DNA of 64,000 nt from Maribacter aquimaris (GTDB lineage Bacteria; Bacteroidota; Bacteroidia; Flavobacteriales; Flavobacteriaceae), in contig NZ_JABTCF010000003.1 in NCBI RefSeq assembly GCF_014596745.1, forward strand, positions 372,001-436,000, in the 5' to 3' direction. Shown here in pieces: positions 1,505-64,000 of the stretch. The translations under genes and the position numbers were made by a program. Position 1 is the stretch's first letter; the number at the start of each line of letters is the position of its first letter. The notes beneath the pieces are model-generated. The model was not told where the DNA came from and searched no databases. It worked only from the letters and a program-made list of their open reading frames with translations.

Positions 1505-3889
1505 ATGAAACCAACTTTGCTTTTATTCATGCTGGGCCTATTTCTTGGATATGCCCAACAGGAACAACAGTACGTTATAAAAGGAAGTGTAACTTCGGCC
1601 TATGGTGAACCTGCATCCTATGCCCATATCTCCATACTAAAACATAAAAAAGGGGTTGCGGCCGACGAAAACGGCGCATATAGCATCACCGACGTTGCCC
1701 CAGGTGATTATGAACTAAAAGTCAGTGCCGTGGGCTTTAAGTCCATCACCAAACACGTAACGGTTTCCGACAGTGATGTTATCGTCAATTTTGAAATAAA
1801 GATCGATACCGCCTTGGACGAGGTCGAGGTATTTGGTTCGCGCTTTGAACACCCCGATAAAATTGAAGCCCTGACCCGTTTACCCCTGGCCACTTACGAA
1901 CAGATCCAGAGTATTTCGGTCATCTCGGAAAAAGTAATCGAAGATCAAGGCACCCTGACCATTGCCGATGCCACCAAAAACGTACCCGGGGTATACTCCT
2001 TTGCCACCTACGGAAACCGAAGTGAGAGTATGTCCTCCCGAGGCTTTAGGGGAATCCCCATTCTGAAGAACGGTGTCCGTGTACATTCCGATTTTAGGGG
2101 TACCGGTATCCTGACCGATATGCAGGGAGTAGATAACATCCAGGTGTTGAAGGGTGCCGCCTCTATCACACAAGGGGTCGCTACCGATTTGGGTAGTCCG
2201 GGCGGCGTGATCAATATCGTTACCAAAACCCCAAAATACCAATATGGTGGACAAGCCTCTTTGCGGGCAGGTAGTTTTGGTCAAGTTAGGCCTACTTTTG
2301 ATGTGTACGGACCTATGAACGACAAAAAGAATACCGCTTTTCGTGTCAATGGAGCTATCGAACGGGCCGATAGTTACCGTGCCGGTGTATCTTCCCAACG
2401 TTTTTACATTAACCCTTCCTACGAATGGCGTATGGATGAGGGAACTACATTGACTTTTGAAATGGACTATTTCGATGACAGTAGAACCCCTGACCCAGGC
2501 ACTGTGAATTTGGCCGAAAACGACACCAATGCCATTTACGACCTGCCCCACAGCCAGTTTTTAGGATATAAGAATGATAAGGCACTTACCCAAAACCTAA
2601 ACTACTCCGCCCGTTTTAAAAAGACACTTACCGATAAATTGAGTTTGAATGCCGCCTATTTTGCCTCAAGTTTGGACCTGGATGTAAAGAATGCCAGTTT
2701 AGGGGATGCCATTAGCGATATTGAGGGCAACACCGTATACAATCTAAGGACTAGGGGATATTCTACCGCTACACGGGAAGATAAAAACAGTGTGTTGCAA
2801 ATAGACCTTATTGGTGATGATTTACAGACCGGCACCATCAGCCACACCTTCCAGATCGGTATGGATTACCGTACCTCTACCTATAACACCTCCAGCCGAA
2901 GTGTTTCGGTACTCGATACGCTCGATGTTTTTGGTACGATATCGAACCAATTGCCCGATGATCTAGATTTGAGCGACCCCAGTGAGGCGGGATCGGAGTC
3001 TCGATCTATCGGATTCGTGGCACAGGATGTCATTACCTTCAATACATGGTTAAAATCGTTCTTAGGTTTTCGTTACAGTACTACCGAGACCAGTACCGAA
3101 ACCGAGACCAATAGCAGTGATGCCTTTAACCCGCTAGCCGGTATTATCATTTCCCCCTTGGAAAACCTAAATGTCTTTGCTTCATACACCAATAGTTCGT
3201 ACCCTAGGACAGGTACCCGTTTAAGTGAAGACGGAAAGGAATTGGGCAACGAACGTTTTGACCAACTCGAAGCCGGTATAAAGACCAATTGGCTCGATAG
3301 TCGCCTGCGTTTTAACCTTACCTATTTCAAAATAAACAATAAGGACATTAACCTACCGGTTTACGACGAGAACTGGATCGCCACAGGATTCTATCAAAAA
3401 GGAGGGAACGACCAACGCCAAGGCATAGAGGTTGAACTTACGGGCCGTGTGCTCGATAATTTTGAGGTGATTACGGGATATTCCTATATCGATGCCCAAT
3501 ACAAGGAACACACCTCCTACGTTTACGGATCCGCTCCCCTGAACACCCCTAAACACACCTTTAACGTATATGGAAACTATGCGTTTAAAAACAAGCTAAA
3601 AGGCTTGTCATTAGGGGCCGGAGCCTACTATACCGGCGACCGTCCGATCAATGATTGGAGTGCGGGTCCCGTTACCCATGAAGGTATCGTTCCCAACCAA
3701 AAACCATTTAATGTTGAGGCCTATACCTTGGTGAACGCCCAGGTGGGATACCGCTTTAACCAAAATTGGGGCGTACGGTTCTTACTGAACAATATTTTTG
3801 ATGAAATCGGTTACAACGCCTACCGTACCCGATATATCAATCAGACCGATCCCCGAAGTTTTTATGGTGTACTTACGTACAGCTTCTAA
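1505..3889 (+). CDS. TonB-dependent siderophore receptor
   Basis: A 794-residue outer-membrane receptor. Residues 1-17 are a signal peptide ending in YAQ. Residues about 24-98 form a carboxypeptidase-regulatory-like domain, common in Bacteroidetes receptors. The plug follows (about 120-240), with the typical TIADATKNVPGVY, MSSRGFRG and VEVLKG-like (IQVLKGAAS) blocks and GGVINIVTK. The remainder is a beta-barrel that ends in the aromatic residue of an outer-membrane protein (VLTYSF). The plug pattern is that of ferric-siderophore receptors. The next gene, 42 bases downstream, is a PepSY membrane protein, the usual inner-membrane partner for releasing iron from siderophores. Two matching palindromes flank the promoter, which suggests iron control. 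The siderophore is not predictable. Confidence 0.9.
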   Translation: MKPTLLLFMLGLFLGYAQQEQQYVIKGSVTSAYGEPASYAHISILKHKKGVAADENGAYSITDVAPGDYELKVSAVGFKSITKHVTVSDSDVIVNFEIKIDTALDEVEVFGSRFEHPDKIEALTRLPLATYEQIQSISVISEKVIEDQGTLTIADATKNVPGVYSFATYGNRSESMSSRGFRGIPILKNGVRVHSDFRGTGILTDMQGVDNIQVLKGAASITQGVATDLGSPGGVINIVTKTPKYQYGGQASLRAGSFGQVRPTFDVYGPMNDKKNTAFRVNGAIERADSYRAGVSSQRFYINPSYEWRMDEGTTLTFEMDYFDDSRTPDPGTVNLAENDTNAIYDLPHSQFLGYKNDKALTQNLNYSARFKKTLTDKLSLNAAYFASSLDLDVKNASLGDAISDIEGNTVYNLRTRGYSTATREDKNSVLQIDLIGDDLQTGTISHTFQIGMDYRTSTYNTSSRSVSVLDTLDVFGTISNQLPDDLDLSDPSEAGSESRSIGFVAQDVITFNTWLKSFLGFRYSTTETSTETETNSSDAFNPLAGIIISPLENLNVFASYTNSSYPRTGTRLSEDGKELGNERFDQLEAGIKTNWLDSRLRFNLTYFKINNKDINLPVYDENWIATGFYQKGGNDQRQGIEVELTGRVLDNFEVITGYSYIDAQYKEHTSYVYGSAPLNTPKHTFNVYGNYAFKNKLKGLSLGAGAYYTGDRPINDWSAGPVTHEGIVPNQKPFNVEAYTLVNAQVGYRFNQNWGVRFLLNNIFDEIGYNAYRTRYINQTDPRSFYGVLTYSF

Positions 3890-59817: not shown

Positions 59818-61785
59818 CTATTTAAAATTAAACCAAAAGTGAACGCCTTCCGAAACTTTATCCACATTTAAACTGGTTTGCAACTGGTTTGCCAAACGAT
59901 TCATTAGTCGGATACCCATAGAGGATTGGGCACGTATGTCGGTATCCTCCGGTAGACCCACCCCATTATCGGTATATTCGAAAAACCCTTCCTGTCCGTT
60001 CACTTTTCGGATATGGATGTAGATCTTACCATTCTCTTCATCATTTGGAAAGGCATATTTAAATGAGTTGGAAACCAATTCGTTCAAAATCAATCCAAAG
60101 GGTATGGCCCGATCGATATCCAATTCGACCCCCTCGGCATCAATGGTAATGTTGATATTGTGTCCACCTTTTTTATAAACGGATTGTACGCTATTGATCA
60201 GACTTTCAATATAGCCTTGCATCTCGATTACCGAAAGGTCGTCATTCTGATACAGTTTTTGATGTATCAACGCCATGGCCTTCACCCTACTCTTACCTTC
60301 TTCCAGGGCTTCTATGGCAGCTTTGCTACGCGTGTTCTTAGTCTGTAGGCTCAATAGACTGGAGACCATCTGGAGATTGTTCTTTACCCTATGGTGAATC
60401 TCCTTCAACAAAGAATCCTTTTCTATCAACGAATTTTCAATAATGTGTTTTTGTTCCGCAATCAAACGTTGGTTCTTAATACTCTTCAAATACGCATATA
60501 CAAGTCCAGCAAAACCTAAAAGTGTGAATACCAATGAAATGAACACCAAGCTGATCTTTTCATCCTGGGCCGTCATTTCCAGGCGTTGTTGCTCTAAACT
60601 CTTTTTCTGTTCTTCGAACATGGCTTGGGTATTGGCAAGATCCCGCCCCATTACGGTAGCCAATTGTTGCGTTCTGAGTTCGGACTCATTAATGTCTATG
60701 GAATCCCTAATACGCATATTCCGTTTTAGGTATGCCGCGGAATTTTGGTAATCCCTTGTTTTGTCATAATAAGACGCCAGCAAACGGTTTCTTTTGAGAA
60801 TATGTTCGGTTTTCGCAAGGTTCACATCAGAACTCAAATATTCCACAGCCTTTTCGTAATCCTCCAATTGCAGGTAACAGTTGGCGATTTCCAAGGTGTT
60901 TTCCACAATATCATCGGAATATTTCCCTTTACTGTTCTCCATGATCTGCTCAATCCCGGATTCAAGAAAAGGAATGGCCACCTCATATTGCCCCAATTGG
61001 GAGTAGCACTTACCGATATTACCATCAATAACGCCCATAAGGCTATTGGCACTGATCAGTTCGTTTTCTGTCTTAACCACGGTAATGTTGTTAAGATATA
61101 CCGTTAAATGGCCTTTGGCCTCTTTATATTTGTTGAGTGCAACCGATGGGGAATTGTCCAATCGCAGATAATTACCGATATTGTTATGGTATTTGGCCTG
61201 GCTGAACTCGTCATCGTCGGGAAAGGTTTTCCGCACCTCGATGATATAATCCTTCATTGCCTTTCGGTGCAAGCCCAAATTGGAATAAATGTCATAAAAG
61301 GCAATATCATCGATAAGGCCGAGATCTTTCTTTTCTTTACGTATATCGATTTGTTCTGCGTAGAGTGCCAGTTGGGAATAATTCCGATCCATCAATCCCA
61401 AGAGCTTCGCCTTAAAGTCAAGGCTTAGTTGATCCTTAAGATCATACAATTCGCTTGATATAGCCAAACTCTTGTCATAATCACCCAGGTCATAATACAC
61501 CTGGGATTGCATCAACATATAATCCCGTATGGCTATGGAATCTTTTTGTTTAATGGCCTCATTCAAATATTGGTTCACGGCATCCAACCAATCATAGGCT
61601 GAATTCTGTTTATATCTGTTGGGAGCCCCAAAAAAATATGAAAACCGTTCGGCGTTTTGATCCTGGTTCTTAAAATTGAGATAAACATCGTCAACCAATG
61701 GAACCGAATCTTGGGATAGCGCCGTAGGAGCTATCAATAAGCTTAGAATGCTAAAAAATAAAAAATTGCCAAGCAGCTTTTTCAT
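59818..61785 (-). CDS. TPR sensor histidine kinase (HisKA_2 type)
   Basis: A 655-residue exported sensor kinase. A signal peptide covers about residues 1-24. An extracytoplasmic region with tetratricopeptide repeats covers about 50-400 (for example LGDYDKSLAISSELYDL, GQYEVAIPFLESGIEQ and LEDYEKAVEYLSSDV). A membrane helix lies near 412-432, followed by a coil and then the HisKA_2 domain with the phosphorylated His in LKEIHHRVKNNLQM (near 466). The HATPase_c domain follows, with NELVSNSFKYAF and DNGVGLPE, and the G2 box SMGIRLM. TPR kinases of this type are frequent in Flavobacteriia. The LytTR regulator to the right, on the same strand, is the likely partner. Confidence 0.92.
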   Translation of the reverse strand: MKKLLGNFLFFSILSLLIAPTALSQDSVPLVDDVYLNFKNQDQNAERFSYFFGAPNRYKQNSAYDWLDAVNQYLNEAIKQKDSIAIRDYMLMQSQVYYDLGDYDKSLAISSELYDLKDQLSLDFKAKLLGLMDRNYSQLALYAEQIDIRKEKKDLGLIDDIAFYDIYSNLGLHRKAMKDYIIEVRKTFPDDDEFSQAKYHNNIGNYLRLDNSPSVALNKYKEAKGHLTVYLNNITVVKTENELISANSLMGVIDGNIGKCYSQLGQYEVAIPFLESGIEQIMENSKGKYSDDIVENTLEIANCYLQLEDYEKAVEYLSSDVNLAKTEHILKRNRLLASYYDKTRDYQNSAAYLKRNMRIRDSIDINESELRTQQLATVMGRDLANTQAMFEEQKKSLEQQRLEMTAQDEKISLVFISLVFTLLGFAGLVYAYLKSIKNQRLIAEQKHIIENSLIEKDSLLKEIHHRVKNNLQMVSSLLSLQTKNTRSKAAIEALEEGKSRVKAMALIHQKLYQNDDLSVIEMQGYIESLINSVQSVYKKGGHNINITIDAEGVELDIDRAIPFGLILNELVSNSFKYAFPNDEENGKIYIHIRKVNGQEGFFEYTDNGVGLPEDTDIRAQSSMGIRLMNRLANQLQTSLNVDKVSEGVHFWFNFK

Positions 61786-61796
61786 ACGTAATAAAA

Positions 61797-61822
61797 AACC
61801 AGATTATTTTAAATAATCGGTT
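61797..61822 (-). promoter_or_regulatory. Palindrome in the kinase gene leader
   Basis: AACC-A-GATTATTT-T-AAATAATC-GGTT is an almost perfect dyad. On the transcript of the kinase gene it forms a hairpin followed by GGTTTTTT, 12 bases before the ATG, so it resembles a terminator or an operator. Either reading would give control of the kinase. Inference only. Confidence 0.5.
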
Positions 61823-62506
61823 TTATAAGTTTTTTGTTGTAATTCAAATCCTTCTATACTCGTATTAATGTATCGTTAGAACGAAATTTTACAACTGTGA
61901 TTGTCCTCGTTTAATAAATCGTACCCTATTTTAACAAAATGCTAGGCATTCCGCCAAAAAGGGATTGGTTCCCCATGGTCGATAAGCAACATCAATACCC
62001 CACAAAAGCGCAGGTTTCATTCCATTATCAAGTAAGTTTGGGGAAACTAATTGAACCATAAAATTATGGCATAGGTCGGCTGACCCCGCAATTATGTTGT
62101 GAAACTGCCTTATTCTGTTGTGAAACGATGAATTGGGACATTCCTATGTATTTCATCGGATTTTTAATGCCTTTCATGGAGTTTTGTAGGAAAATAGGAA
62201 GTCTCGAAGGCATCTTAGGTCAATCCCGAAAGTTGGGTGTGAATTAGAAAAAGAAGGCATAAACTATCCCGAAGATCGTGTTCTGTTCATTTTTTGCATT
62301 GCCTCAAATGCATAGCATTCATGAATACCGTTAAAAAACAATAGACATGCCGATGAATAAAAAACGACCAGGGCCGAAAAACCAAGGTATGGTATACCGT
62401 GGTTTAGAGGAGCCAGCCGTAGCCTGGCCATTATACTGAGATCTATATTGGGAAAAGCAGGTAAACCCCTGGCCACACCGTCCAGGCCGCTTTCACTAAG
62501 GTGAAA

Positions 62507-62750
62507 TGCGCTATGGACGGCTTCCCCCGCCCAATGCGGAAACCACTTGATTTAAAACGAAAACTAAAATAGGCCGGGAAAGTTTACGATTAACTTACTG
62601 AAACCAATGGAAATATTGATTTACAAGGCTGACATTCTTTTTAAAGTCAGCCTGTCATTCCGAATGAGGTACGAAGAGGAATCGCACTAGCATAGGGGTA
62701 TGGGATTTCTCGTTGCTCGTTCCTCGCTCTGTCGAAATGACAAGGTCTTA
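62507..62750. repeat. Tandem repeat, copy 1 (244 bp)
   Basis: Begins TGCGCTATGGACGGC. It is 244 bp and is followed directly by a second copy of the same length. The two copies differ mainly in a short stretch after AATGCGGAAA and in a few single bases. It contains a hairpin GGCTGAC/GTCAGCC (62627-62652) and a REP-like element (62653-62742). Confidence 0.93.
62653..62742. repeat. REP-like palindromic element, copy 1
   Basis: Starts TGTCATTCCGA and ends TCGAAATGACA, which are imperfect inverted copies of one another. The body is rich in short self-complementary pieces. This is the pattern of a dispersed flavobacterial intergenic repeat (short palindromes starting GTCATTCCGA) that I recall from other genomes. 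Confidence 0.75.
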
Positions 62751-62994
62751 TGCGCCATGGACGGCTTCCCCCGCCCAATGCGGAAATTCCTCGATTTACT
62801 ACGAAAACTAAAATAGGCCGGGAAAGTTTACGATTAACTTACTGAAACCAATGGAAATATTGATTTACAAGGCTGACATTCTTTTTAAAGTCAGCCTGTC
62901 ATTCCGAATGAGGTACGAAGAGGAATCGCACTAGCATAGGGGTATGGGATTTCTCGTCGCTCGTTCCTCGCTCTGTCGAAATGACAAGGTCTTA
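62751..62994. repeat. Tandem repeat, copy 2 (244 bp)
   Basis: Begins TGCGCCATGGACGGC, same length as copy 1 and nearly identical to it. Its REP-like element lies at 62897-62986 and its hairpin at 62871-62896. Confidence 0.93.
62897..62986. repeat. REP-like palindromic element, copy 2
   Basis: The same element as at 62653-62742, shifted by exactly 244 bases; GTTGCTCG reads GTCGCTCG here. Confidence 0.75.
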
Positions 62995-63064
62995 TGCGCT
63001 ATGGACGGCTTCCCCCGCCCAATGCGGAAACCACTGGATTTAAAACGAAATCAAAAATAGGCCG
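62995..63064. repeat. Tandem repeat, partial copy 3 (70 bp)
   Basis: Repeats the first part of the unit (TGCGCTATGGACGGC to AATAGGCCG) with scattered changes and then diverges. Copy 3 resembles copy 1 more than copy 2 at the AAACCAC position. Confidence 0.85.
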
Positions 63065-63205
63065 TTCCTTTTTTAGGACCCCGTTCAGGGGGATGAAAAA
63101 TAGAATTCTTCCTTTACAGATTAACCACAATTTTCACATAAACACTACAATTGTTCTTGATCCAGCATCACATTCCACGAAGACCGGAAGAAACTTTTAC
63201 AACTA

Positions 63206-63238
63206 AAAAGAGCCTTGTCTTTAAAACAAGGCTCTTTT
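63206..63238. terminator. Orphan bidirectional terminator
   Basis: AAAAGAGCCTTGT (63206-63218) pairs perfectly with ACAAGGCTCTTTT (63226-63238) around CTTTAAA. No gene ends near it on the plus strand, and the LytTR gene on the minus strand already has its own hairpin 160 bases earlier. Confidence 0.85.
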
Positions 63239-63395
63239 ACGAGAACACTATATGAAAATGAAAAATTTTATACTTTTTTAAGCGGCAATACCTTGTTTCG
63301 TATCACATGGCTAATATAGAAGCATTCGCCACTTTCAAAAACTTAATGTTGTGAACAATGCAATTTCTGTGGTGAACGTTGGCTATACCGTTATC

Positions 63396-63430
63396 ACAAA
63401 AAAAAAGAGGTGCTGATGTGCACCTCTTTA
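63396..63430 (-). terminator. Terminator of the LytTR regulator gene
   Basis: AAAGAGGTGC (63404-63413) pairs with GCACCTCTTT (63420-63429) around TGATGT; the A run on the left gives a T tail on the minus strand. It lies 20 bases beyond the stop codon. Confidence 0.88.
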
Positions 63431-63450
63431 TAGCTATGGTTTCCTTAACC

Positions 63451-64000
63451 CTAGGAATTCATTGCAGAAATAATGAATTCCTTAAAATCCTTACTGATCG
63501 GAATCAAATTGTTGTTGATCATGATATCCTTGGAGTTGATGGCATCAATATGATCCACATTGACGATATAGGATTTGTGTGCCCTATAGAACTTATTCTT
63601 AGGTAATTTTTCGAGATAATCCTTCAATGGTGAACGTACCAGGAACTTTTTGTCAACCGTATTCACTTCCAAGTATACATTGTCCGCTTTTATAAATTGG
63701 ATATCCCCAAATTGGATCCTGTAATACAAATGCTGTTTTTTTACAAAAATAGAATCCTTAAGTACAGAGTTGGACATGGGTACGTCATCCTCATTGACCT
63801 TATCCTCAACGGGAGCCTGCTTATTGGTACCGTATGTAAAGTTGGATAGTGCAATCTCAATGGAGGTATAAAGATCTTGTTGTTCAAAAGGCTTTACCAA
63901 ATACCCATTGGGTTTCACTGTTTTGGCATTTTCCACCGTTGCCCGGTCCGAGTTGGAGGTAACAAAAATGAAAGGAATATCATAATTCTCCCGAATATGT
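63451..64000 (-). CDS. LytTR-family response regulator, N-terminus cut by window edge
   Basis: The frame is open from the stop at 63451 to the right edge; 182 residues are visible. The first part is the end of a receiver domain: IPFIFVTSNSDRATVENA and KPNGYLVKPFEQQDLYTS, with the conserved Thr/Ser and the KPF lysine; the phosphorylated Asp is outside the window. After a linker comes a LytTR DNA-binding domain (about the last 100 residues) with DIQFIKADNVYLEV, FYRAHKSYIVNVDHI and LIPISKDFKE. A GTG at 63936 could be mistaken for the start, but the frame continues. It is the likely partner of the TPR kinase at 59818-61785 on the same strand. Confidence 0.93.
   Translation of the reverse strand, partial: HIRENYDIPFIFVTSNSDRATVENAKTVKPNGYLVKPFEQQDLYTSIEIALSNFTYGTNKQAPVEDKVNEDDVPMSNSVLKDSIFVKKQHLYYRIQFGDIQFIKADNVYLEVNTVDKKFLVRSPLKDYLEKLPKNKFYRAHKSYIVNVDHIDAINSKDIMINNNLIPISKDFKEFIISAMNS

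Follow-up and report, generated by a model that had tools for sequence, protein, structure and literature searches.

The 244-bp tandem repeat between a histidine kinase gene and a response regulator gene of Maribacter aquimaris reads as the interior of a miniature transposable element

The DNA analysed here, referred to as the window, is a stretch of 64,000 nucleotides from Maribacter aquimaris. Close to its end, the ORF list and a domain search place two genes on the minus strand: a TPR-HisKA_2 histidine kinase (59,818–61,785) and, upstream of it, a LytTR response regulator (63,451–64,000, running off the window). The original prediction put a repeat array between the halves of a two-component pair, and the pair is borne out by the adjacency of kinase and regulator in 9 of 9 relatives examined. 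Several small features can be seen in the gap between the two genes. A direct repeat of GTTGTGAAAC with 21-bp spacing lies upstream of the kinase (62,091–62,127) in all ten sequences, the window and nine relatives; it resembles a LytTR-type operator, perhaps serving the adjacent regulator. A similar pair downstream of the regulator gene (63,348–63,378), found in the window by eye, is matched only in two relatives, M. polysiphoniae (G007) and G008. Nearer the repeat array, a near-perfect inverted repeat with 16-nt arms (63,206–63,238) could terminate a short minus-strand transcript; the stretch around it is retained in several relatives.

The array itself is real. TRF reports a tandem repeat at 62,506–63,064 with a period of 244, 2.3 copies, 94% matches, 0% indels and a score of 1041, and a second repeat search of the window finds a 79-bp part three times, at 62,498, 62,742 and 62,986, in agreement with that spacing. 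The period is nevertheless a frame and not the biological unit, which spans 62,217–63,163, and the predicted start of the array cuts through a conserved hairpin (62,478–62,520). The layout, read on the plus strand, is better described as core-U-core-U-core, where plain elements of the same kind have a single core. Core 1 (62,470–62,578) scores 120 bits against a covariance model and is a complete module, the one core of this element in which the hairpin is whole; it is followed by a 165-bp unit, U1 (62,577–62,741), core 2 (62,742–62,820), the second 165-bp unit, U2 (62,821–62,985), and core 3 (62,986–63,064). Stretches related to U occur at other places. The copies had been called nearly identical, which holds for U, where U1 and U2 share 164 of 165 positions and differ at one, but less so for the three 79-bp cores, which agree pairwise at 69, 73 and 70 of 79 positions, i.e., with 6 to 10 differences. 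A hairpin and a REP-like palindrome had been predicted in each full unit, and both are present twice: the hairpin GGCTGAC...GTCAGCC, which also appears in the predicted RNA fold, at 62,627–62,652 and 62,871–62,896, and the imperfect palindrome TGTCATTCCGA...TCGAAATGACA at 62,653–62,742 and 62,897–62,986. One 244-bp unit folded alone as RNA is not stabler than its shuffles (z −0.80), and a search for tRNA and tmRNA genes found none.

Judged from its sequence, the 244-bp repeat forms the inner part of a non-autonomous transposable element, a MITE of 947 bp at 62,217–63,163. The array lies between the two genes as predicted, but as the cargo of an element that had been missed and not as a free-standing array. 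The 5' end of the MITE (AGGTCAATCCC..., 62,217–62,255) can be traced to an ISAon1-type insertion sequence (IS), with MITE positions 4–39 matching IS positions 4–39 at 86%, and the 3' end (...GTTCTTGATCC, 63,071–63,163) corresponds at 82–84% to the final ~95 bp of that IS (1321–1416); in all, IS positions 1–39 and about 1322–1415 are retained. Between the 5' end and core 1 lies a long form of upstream cargo (62,256–62,469) without a match to the IS, and the stretch 62,220–62,576 matches other elements of the same genome (L013, L019 and L024–L027) at 90–93% as well as elements of Arenibacter. Two mechanically called ORFs of 70 amino acids are the only ones that overlap the MITE. The same sharp ends recur in the flanks of the loci fetched from the M. 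aquimaris genome, where elements begin with GGRTCAATCCCAAAAGTTGGGTG and finish with either ...GTTCTTGATCC or ...GGTCATGACCC.

The insertion site can be reconstructed from a relative in which it is empty. In M. polysiphoniae (G007), the site has the form AA-GGCATCCC-ATTCC and reads AAGGCATCCCATTCC, and its counterpart in the window is AAGGCATCTT-[62,217–63,163]-AGCATCACATTCC. The sequences thus point to an 8-bp target duplication on either side of the MITE, GGCATCTT on the left (62,209–62,216) and AGCATCAC on the right (63,164–63,171), each carrying two changes and so agreeing with the empty site at 6 of 8 positions; the two copies share just 5 of their 8 positions and are recognised via the empty site. 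No MITE sequence was matched between kinase and regulator in any of the nine Maribacter relatives (G001, G002, G003, G005 and G007–G011). Since the flanks are 95–96% identical to those of M. polysiphoniae, the insertion should postdate the split from that species, yet it is not fresh. What appeared to be a regulatory tandem repeat can in this way be read as a well-bounded transposon insertion younger than that split.

A selected regulatory insert, tuning expression of the kinase through its hairpins or through the number of its units, could occupy the same position. It would sit in the gap of a conserved regulator-kinase pair, and MITEs can change the transcripts of their neighbours (PMC4133298, PMC3733652). 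However, none of the nine relatives has the insertion, which falls between kept blocks without touching either: on the kinase side a stretch matched at least partly in 9 of 9 relatives (62,089–62,194), and on the other a regulator-side block that starts at 63,165–63,225 in 7 of 9, with the match starting at 63,345 in G002 and at 63,450 in G003. Related elements are moreover scattered over the genome. A terminator-like hairpin does follow the regulator gene (63,404–63,429), but a terminator scan gave 1 site against 2.0 expected by chance; a scan for sigma-70-type promoters gave 5 sites against 5.5 expected. A regulatory insert is for these reasons a very unlikely reading, and at this position the MITE has most likely not been selected for any role.

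The window copy belongs to a large family. Searching the M. aquimaris genome with 62,500–63,070 returned 39 matches and with 61,790–62,510 returned 52, and a BLAST of the intergenic gap against the fetched loci revealed a single longer element, lacking the 244-bp expansion, at many of them. By a hand count in which a place fetched twice was counted once, these loci hold 35 distinct MITE 5' ends, the window copy and 34 others, of which 28 can be paired with a 3' end; the seven unpaired ends (the third copy of L012, L018, L029, two in L052, L053 and L054) were excluded. The size of 27 of the 28 measured copies is 256–671 bp, which leaves the window copy, at 947 bp, long for a MITE. U is carried by three of these elements: the window copy, L017 and L010. 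Duplicated 8-bp flanks agreeing at 7 or more of 8 positions are found at 15 of the 28 elements, 9 of which have all eight, whereas random re-pairing of the flanks, in 10,000 trials, gave on average 0.93 and 0.42 such elements and never more than 5 and 4, respectively. Leaving out L031 and one copy of L011 gives 14 of 26 elements against 0.96 by chance. The 13 elements that fall below 7 of 8 include members of tandem groups (L011, L012 and the second copy of L013). At one of the excluded ends (L018, 1900–2253), inspection by eye suggests that the flanking coding-like sequence comes from different genes, possibly the trace of a rearrangement by recombination between MITE copies.

The genome is a draft assembly of 27 contigs. 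MITE copies are found no more than about 600 bp from where contigs C10, C26 and C4 start (L014, L015 and L016), and the repeat may therefore have limited the assembly. The second unit, or even the whole array, could on this account be a mis-join of repeats. Against such an artefact, the units show differences, with one change in U and 6 to 10 in the cores; the flanks are unique and collinear with those of the nine relatives; and a related element with one U exists on contig C1. An artefact of assembly is accordingly very improbable.

Autonomous relatives of the MITE can be found in other genomes. A scan of their contigs for the IS-type 5' end located 75 stretches, mostly in Arenibacter but also in Tenacibaculum, Flavivirga and others, and 4 of the 22 stretches inspected for ORFs hold a complete IS of 1415–1459 bp with two overlapping ORFs (L085, L086, L136 and L142). 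Perfect 8-bp duplications (8/8) flank two of these copies, L136 and L142, and are absent at L085 and L086. The ORFs of L085, from Arenibacter, are those of an ISAon1 transposase: they match NF049917 (ISAon1_downstr) and NF049916 (ISAon1_upstream) with 522 and 154 bits and PF01610 (DDE_Tnp_ISL3) with 178 bits, all far above cut-off, and match the general ISL3 equivalog NF033550 and the Zn-ribbon Pfam below their own cut-offs. The same Arenibacter genome, ARW7G5Y1, contains elements with the same 5' end and the same core (L077, L079 and others). An intact ISAon1-type transposase was found neither in the M. aquimaris draft nor in M. polysiphoniae. The former has pieces, the longest on contig C13 (residues 182–330, in two overlapping matches), and part of its transposase matches are the MITE 3' ends themselves; the latter has short C-terminal pieces only. 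Because the M. aquimaris genome is a draft, a gap may conceal an intact copy. The shared ends, and the fact that one Arenibacter genome has both the IS and MITE-like elements, suggest that the MITEs are mobilised in trans by an ISAon1-type transposase. An IS of the ISAon1 type can in this way be named as the source of a repeat family of Maribacter and Arenibacter. Five loci (L012, L015, L016, L030 and L033) have elements with two unlike IS-type 3' ends in succession, which look as if two ISAon1-type lineages had contributed.

The cargo appears to carry a record of recombination, signs of which had been predicted and can be seen both in switches of sequence type within cores and in the contrast between U and core identity. 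Sequence of the kind seen in the REP-like arrays of contig C23 ends cores 1 and 2 and opens cores 2 and 3, and the middles are of the MITE type; core 2 is thus a mosaic of both and lacks the 5' arm of the hairpin, and core 3 has an array-type start and a MITE-type remainder. These mosaic cores are best explained by recombination between a MITE and an array via the core that they share. A simple recent duplication as the origin of all cores was considered and ruled out, because U is identical at 164 of 165 positions when the cores share only 69–73 of 79 and are mosaic. The element with one U on C1 (L017, at 311 kb) matches U at 98% and has its own perfect 8/8 duplication, so that a U-bearing MITE has probably moved as a unit; in L010, U lies between minimal ends with a 7/8 duplication. 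In the 75 IS-end stretches of other genomes, U was not matched, and the core gave 30 matches, spread over 28 loci that include two of M. polysiphoniae (L108 and L147).

Instability of unit number, which the original prediction had also raised, is seen at other loci, the relatives being empty at the window locus. For instance, the array that follows an ORF on C23 (L009, 13,857–14,336) has 2 REP units in M. aquimaris and 5 at the orthologous place in M. polysiphoniae, and at one orthologous MITE site (L011/L222) three MITEs stand in tandem in the former, against one element of ~1.05 kb in the latter. Since the numbers of REP units and of MITEs differ at orthologous sites, these loci change in composition from species to species. 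Beside the C23 arrays (L009, about 3034–3250), another tandem repeat, of about 107 bp (GAAAGAAGAAAGCATTCATGAACC...), was noticed by eye.

Taken as a whole, the array is very probably the cargo of a MITE made from both ends of an ISL3-type IS of the ISAon1 family. What the sequences show directly are the ends, with an autonomous IS of relatives to match them, the duplications, the empty site and the mosaic cores; the order of events that we infer is as follows. The IS would have lost nearly all of its transposase gene, leaving 5' and 3' ends of ~39 and ~95 bp, respectively, around a core. An ISAon1-type transposase would then have spread the MITE in trans, with 8-bp target duplications, and one copy would have inserted in the regulator-kinase gap after the split from M. 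polysiphoniae. Recombination with REP-like arrays of the same genome, via the core, could have provided U and the layout core-U-core, and an unequal exchange could have yielded the second unit.

Alternatively, the array could be of the REP/BIME type and owe its origin to the action of a REP-associated tyrosine transposase (RAYT) on the TGTCATTCCGA palindrome, which is arrayed and resembles a REP. REP-type repeats have been reported from Bacteroidetes among other phyla (PMC3733652). A single candidate for the enzyme can be offered: the family models PF01797 and NF047646 each have one match in the genome, and both fall on an ORF that is cut at its 3' side by the end of contig C3 (45–47 bits to NF047646). 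However, this ORF falls below both curated cut-offs, and its motifs, NHYH and YIHLNP, fit subclass 2.1, which one classification table shows with no REP association (PMC6006769). The ORF (L055, 1474–2439) also has a C-terminal tail of repeated blocks (DLQGSGNLAG...) that runs off the contig. A search of the M. aquimaris genome for a REP-flanked RAYT gene found none. The palindrome, for its part, occurs at 14 places in the genome, both window copies included; 12 of these are within core arrays or MITEs, the two in the window inside the MITE described here, and the remaining two match it only partly, over 39 and 55 bases. Recurrence of the array in many unrelated places, which the original prediction had named as a ground against itself, is seen in part: the core has 41 matches in this genome, the palindrome only its 14 places. 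With one sub-threshold transposase match and palindromes tied to cores or MITEs, the REP/RAYT system proposed earlier is unsupported, and a RAYT is quite unlikely to have made this array.

The most unusual part of the element appears to be the core, which in other genomes is also found without MITE ends and has a hairpin that seems to be kept across genera. The hairpin, assigned to the minus strand at 62,478–62,520, consists of a 7-bp outer stem, an internal loop and an 8-bp inner stem. In an alignment of 24 cores, it was predicted by RNAalifold (columns 9–15/45–51 and 20–27/32–40) and supported by a count of pairs: 97.5% of cells are paired and 17 cells have changes on both sides versus 6.0 in shuffles, although pairs with a both-side change were as many in 82 of 500 shuffles. 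A wider set (n = 25) brings in five divergent cores of two other genera (four from G102 and one from G131, scoring 56–81 bits). Here, standard pairs make up 93.0% of the hairpin and a closing stem, against 27–39% when the pairing is slid; 8 pairs are changed on both sides (7 in the hairpin and 1 in the closing stem), a number reached by 1 of 500 shuffles, and 31 cells are so changed versus 7.4 in shuffles. Further standard pair types are in no excess over shuffles in the 24- or the 25-core set (391 and 432 of 500 as high, respectively). The pairs that fail among the 25 rows are the closing pair 2–108 (in 15), 10–50 (in 7) and 12–48 (in 5), and in the wider set RNAalifold retains the inner stem but puts another pairing in place of the outer one. 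Because A-C mismatches outnumber G-U pairs by 21 to 3 in 63 cores, the minus strand would be the better RNA. Window cores 2 and 3, which lack the 5' arm, score 54 and 59 bits against 120 for core 1. Rfam gave no match to the window at the gathering score, and two weak matches within 62,400–63,300 at E values up to 1, neither over the core.

A census of the core gave 41 matches in M. aquimaris, 12 in M. polysiphoniae, 6 in G010, 2 each in G005 and G009 and none in eight other genomes searched. In a draw of 199 genomes, one per genus of the family, 3 matched at 1e-4 with strict filters, M. aquimaris included, and this form of the core is accordingly not widespread. No MITE ends were found at the fetched core-bearing loci of G005, G009, G010, G102 and G131, nor in the 20-kb C23 stretch (L009). 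One of the G009 loci (L069, 1300–2500) has two cores 481 bp apart with REP-like GGGACTCACCGA...AATTCCC around them instead of MITE ends. It is possible, though we hold it only tentatively, that the core is an independent structured element of Flavobacteriaceae, a hairpin of RNA or of single-stranded DNA with a selected fold, that rides on several unrelated repeat families; under the same tentative reading its hosts would be ISAon1-type MITEs in Maribacter and Arenibacter, REP-like arrays and other intergenic repeats of further genera. Cores lie both inside and outside MITEs, the hairpin has 7 pairs changed on two sides, and why its form should be maintained in unrelated repeat families is a question of interest.

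In a literature collection with few subscription papers, searches on MITEs of Flavobacteriaceae, Maribacter and Flavobacterium, on Arenibacter repeats, on ISAon1 and on ISL3 MITEs gave no title or abstract opening that describes the element. It is nonetheless of a familiar kind, a MITE of ISAon1/ISL3 origin, and the recombined repeat cargo is what is mildly surprising. The Cardinium endosymbiont belongs to the Bacteroidota. Its MITE is reported to be widespread in a repeat-rich genome (PMC9769881), and can be likened to the present family in that respect. REP/BIME arrays and RAYT systems share imperfect extragenic palindromes in tandem, but here no REP-flanked RAYT was found and the palindromes are mostly tied to cores and lie inside a MITE of a DDE transposase (PMC3733652, PMC6006769). 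The Tn3-derived TIMEs are likewise miniature and mosaic, lack a transposase and undergo homologous recombination between copies; they differ in belonging to another transposase family and in being usually single copy, whereas dozens are present here and the captured cargo consists of non-coding repeats (PMC4133298). A likeness in structure can also be drawn with the 187-nt ISL3-type MITE of Microcystis, which is described as (nearly) non-coding and multicopy, with 8-nt direct repeats, short inverted ends that start with GG and are common to an ISL3-family transposase gene, and an inferred mobilisation in trans (PMC11448079). Unlike that MITE, the Maribacter elements measure 256–947 bp, have ISAon1-type ends (GGRTCAA), keep a 3' piece of the transposase gene and carry a repeat module.
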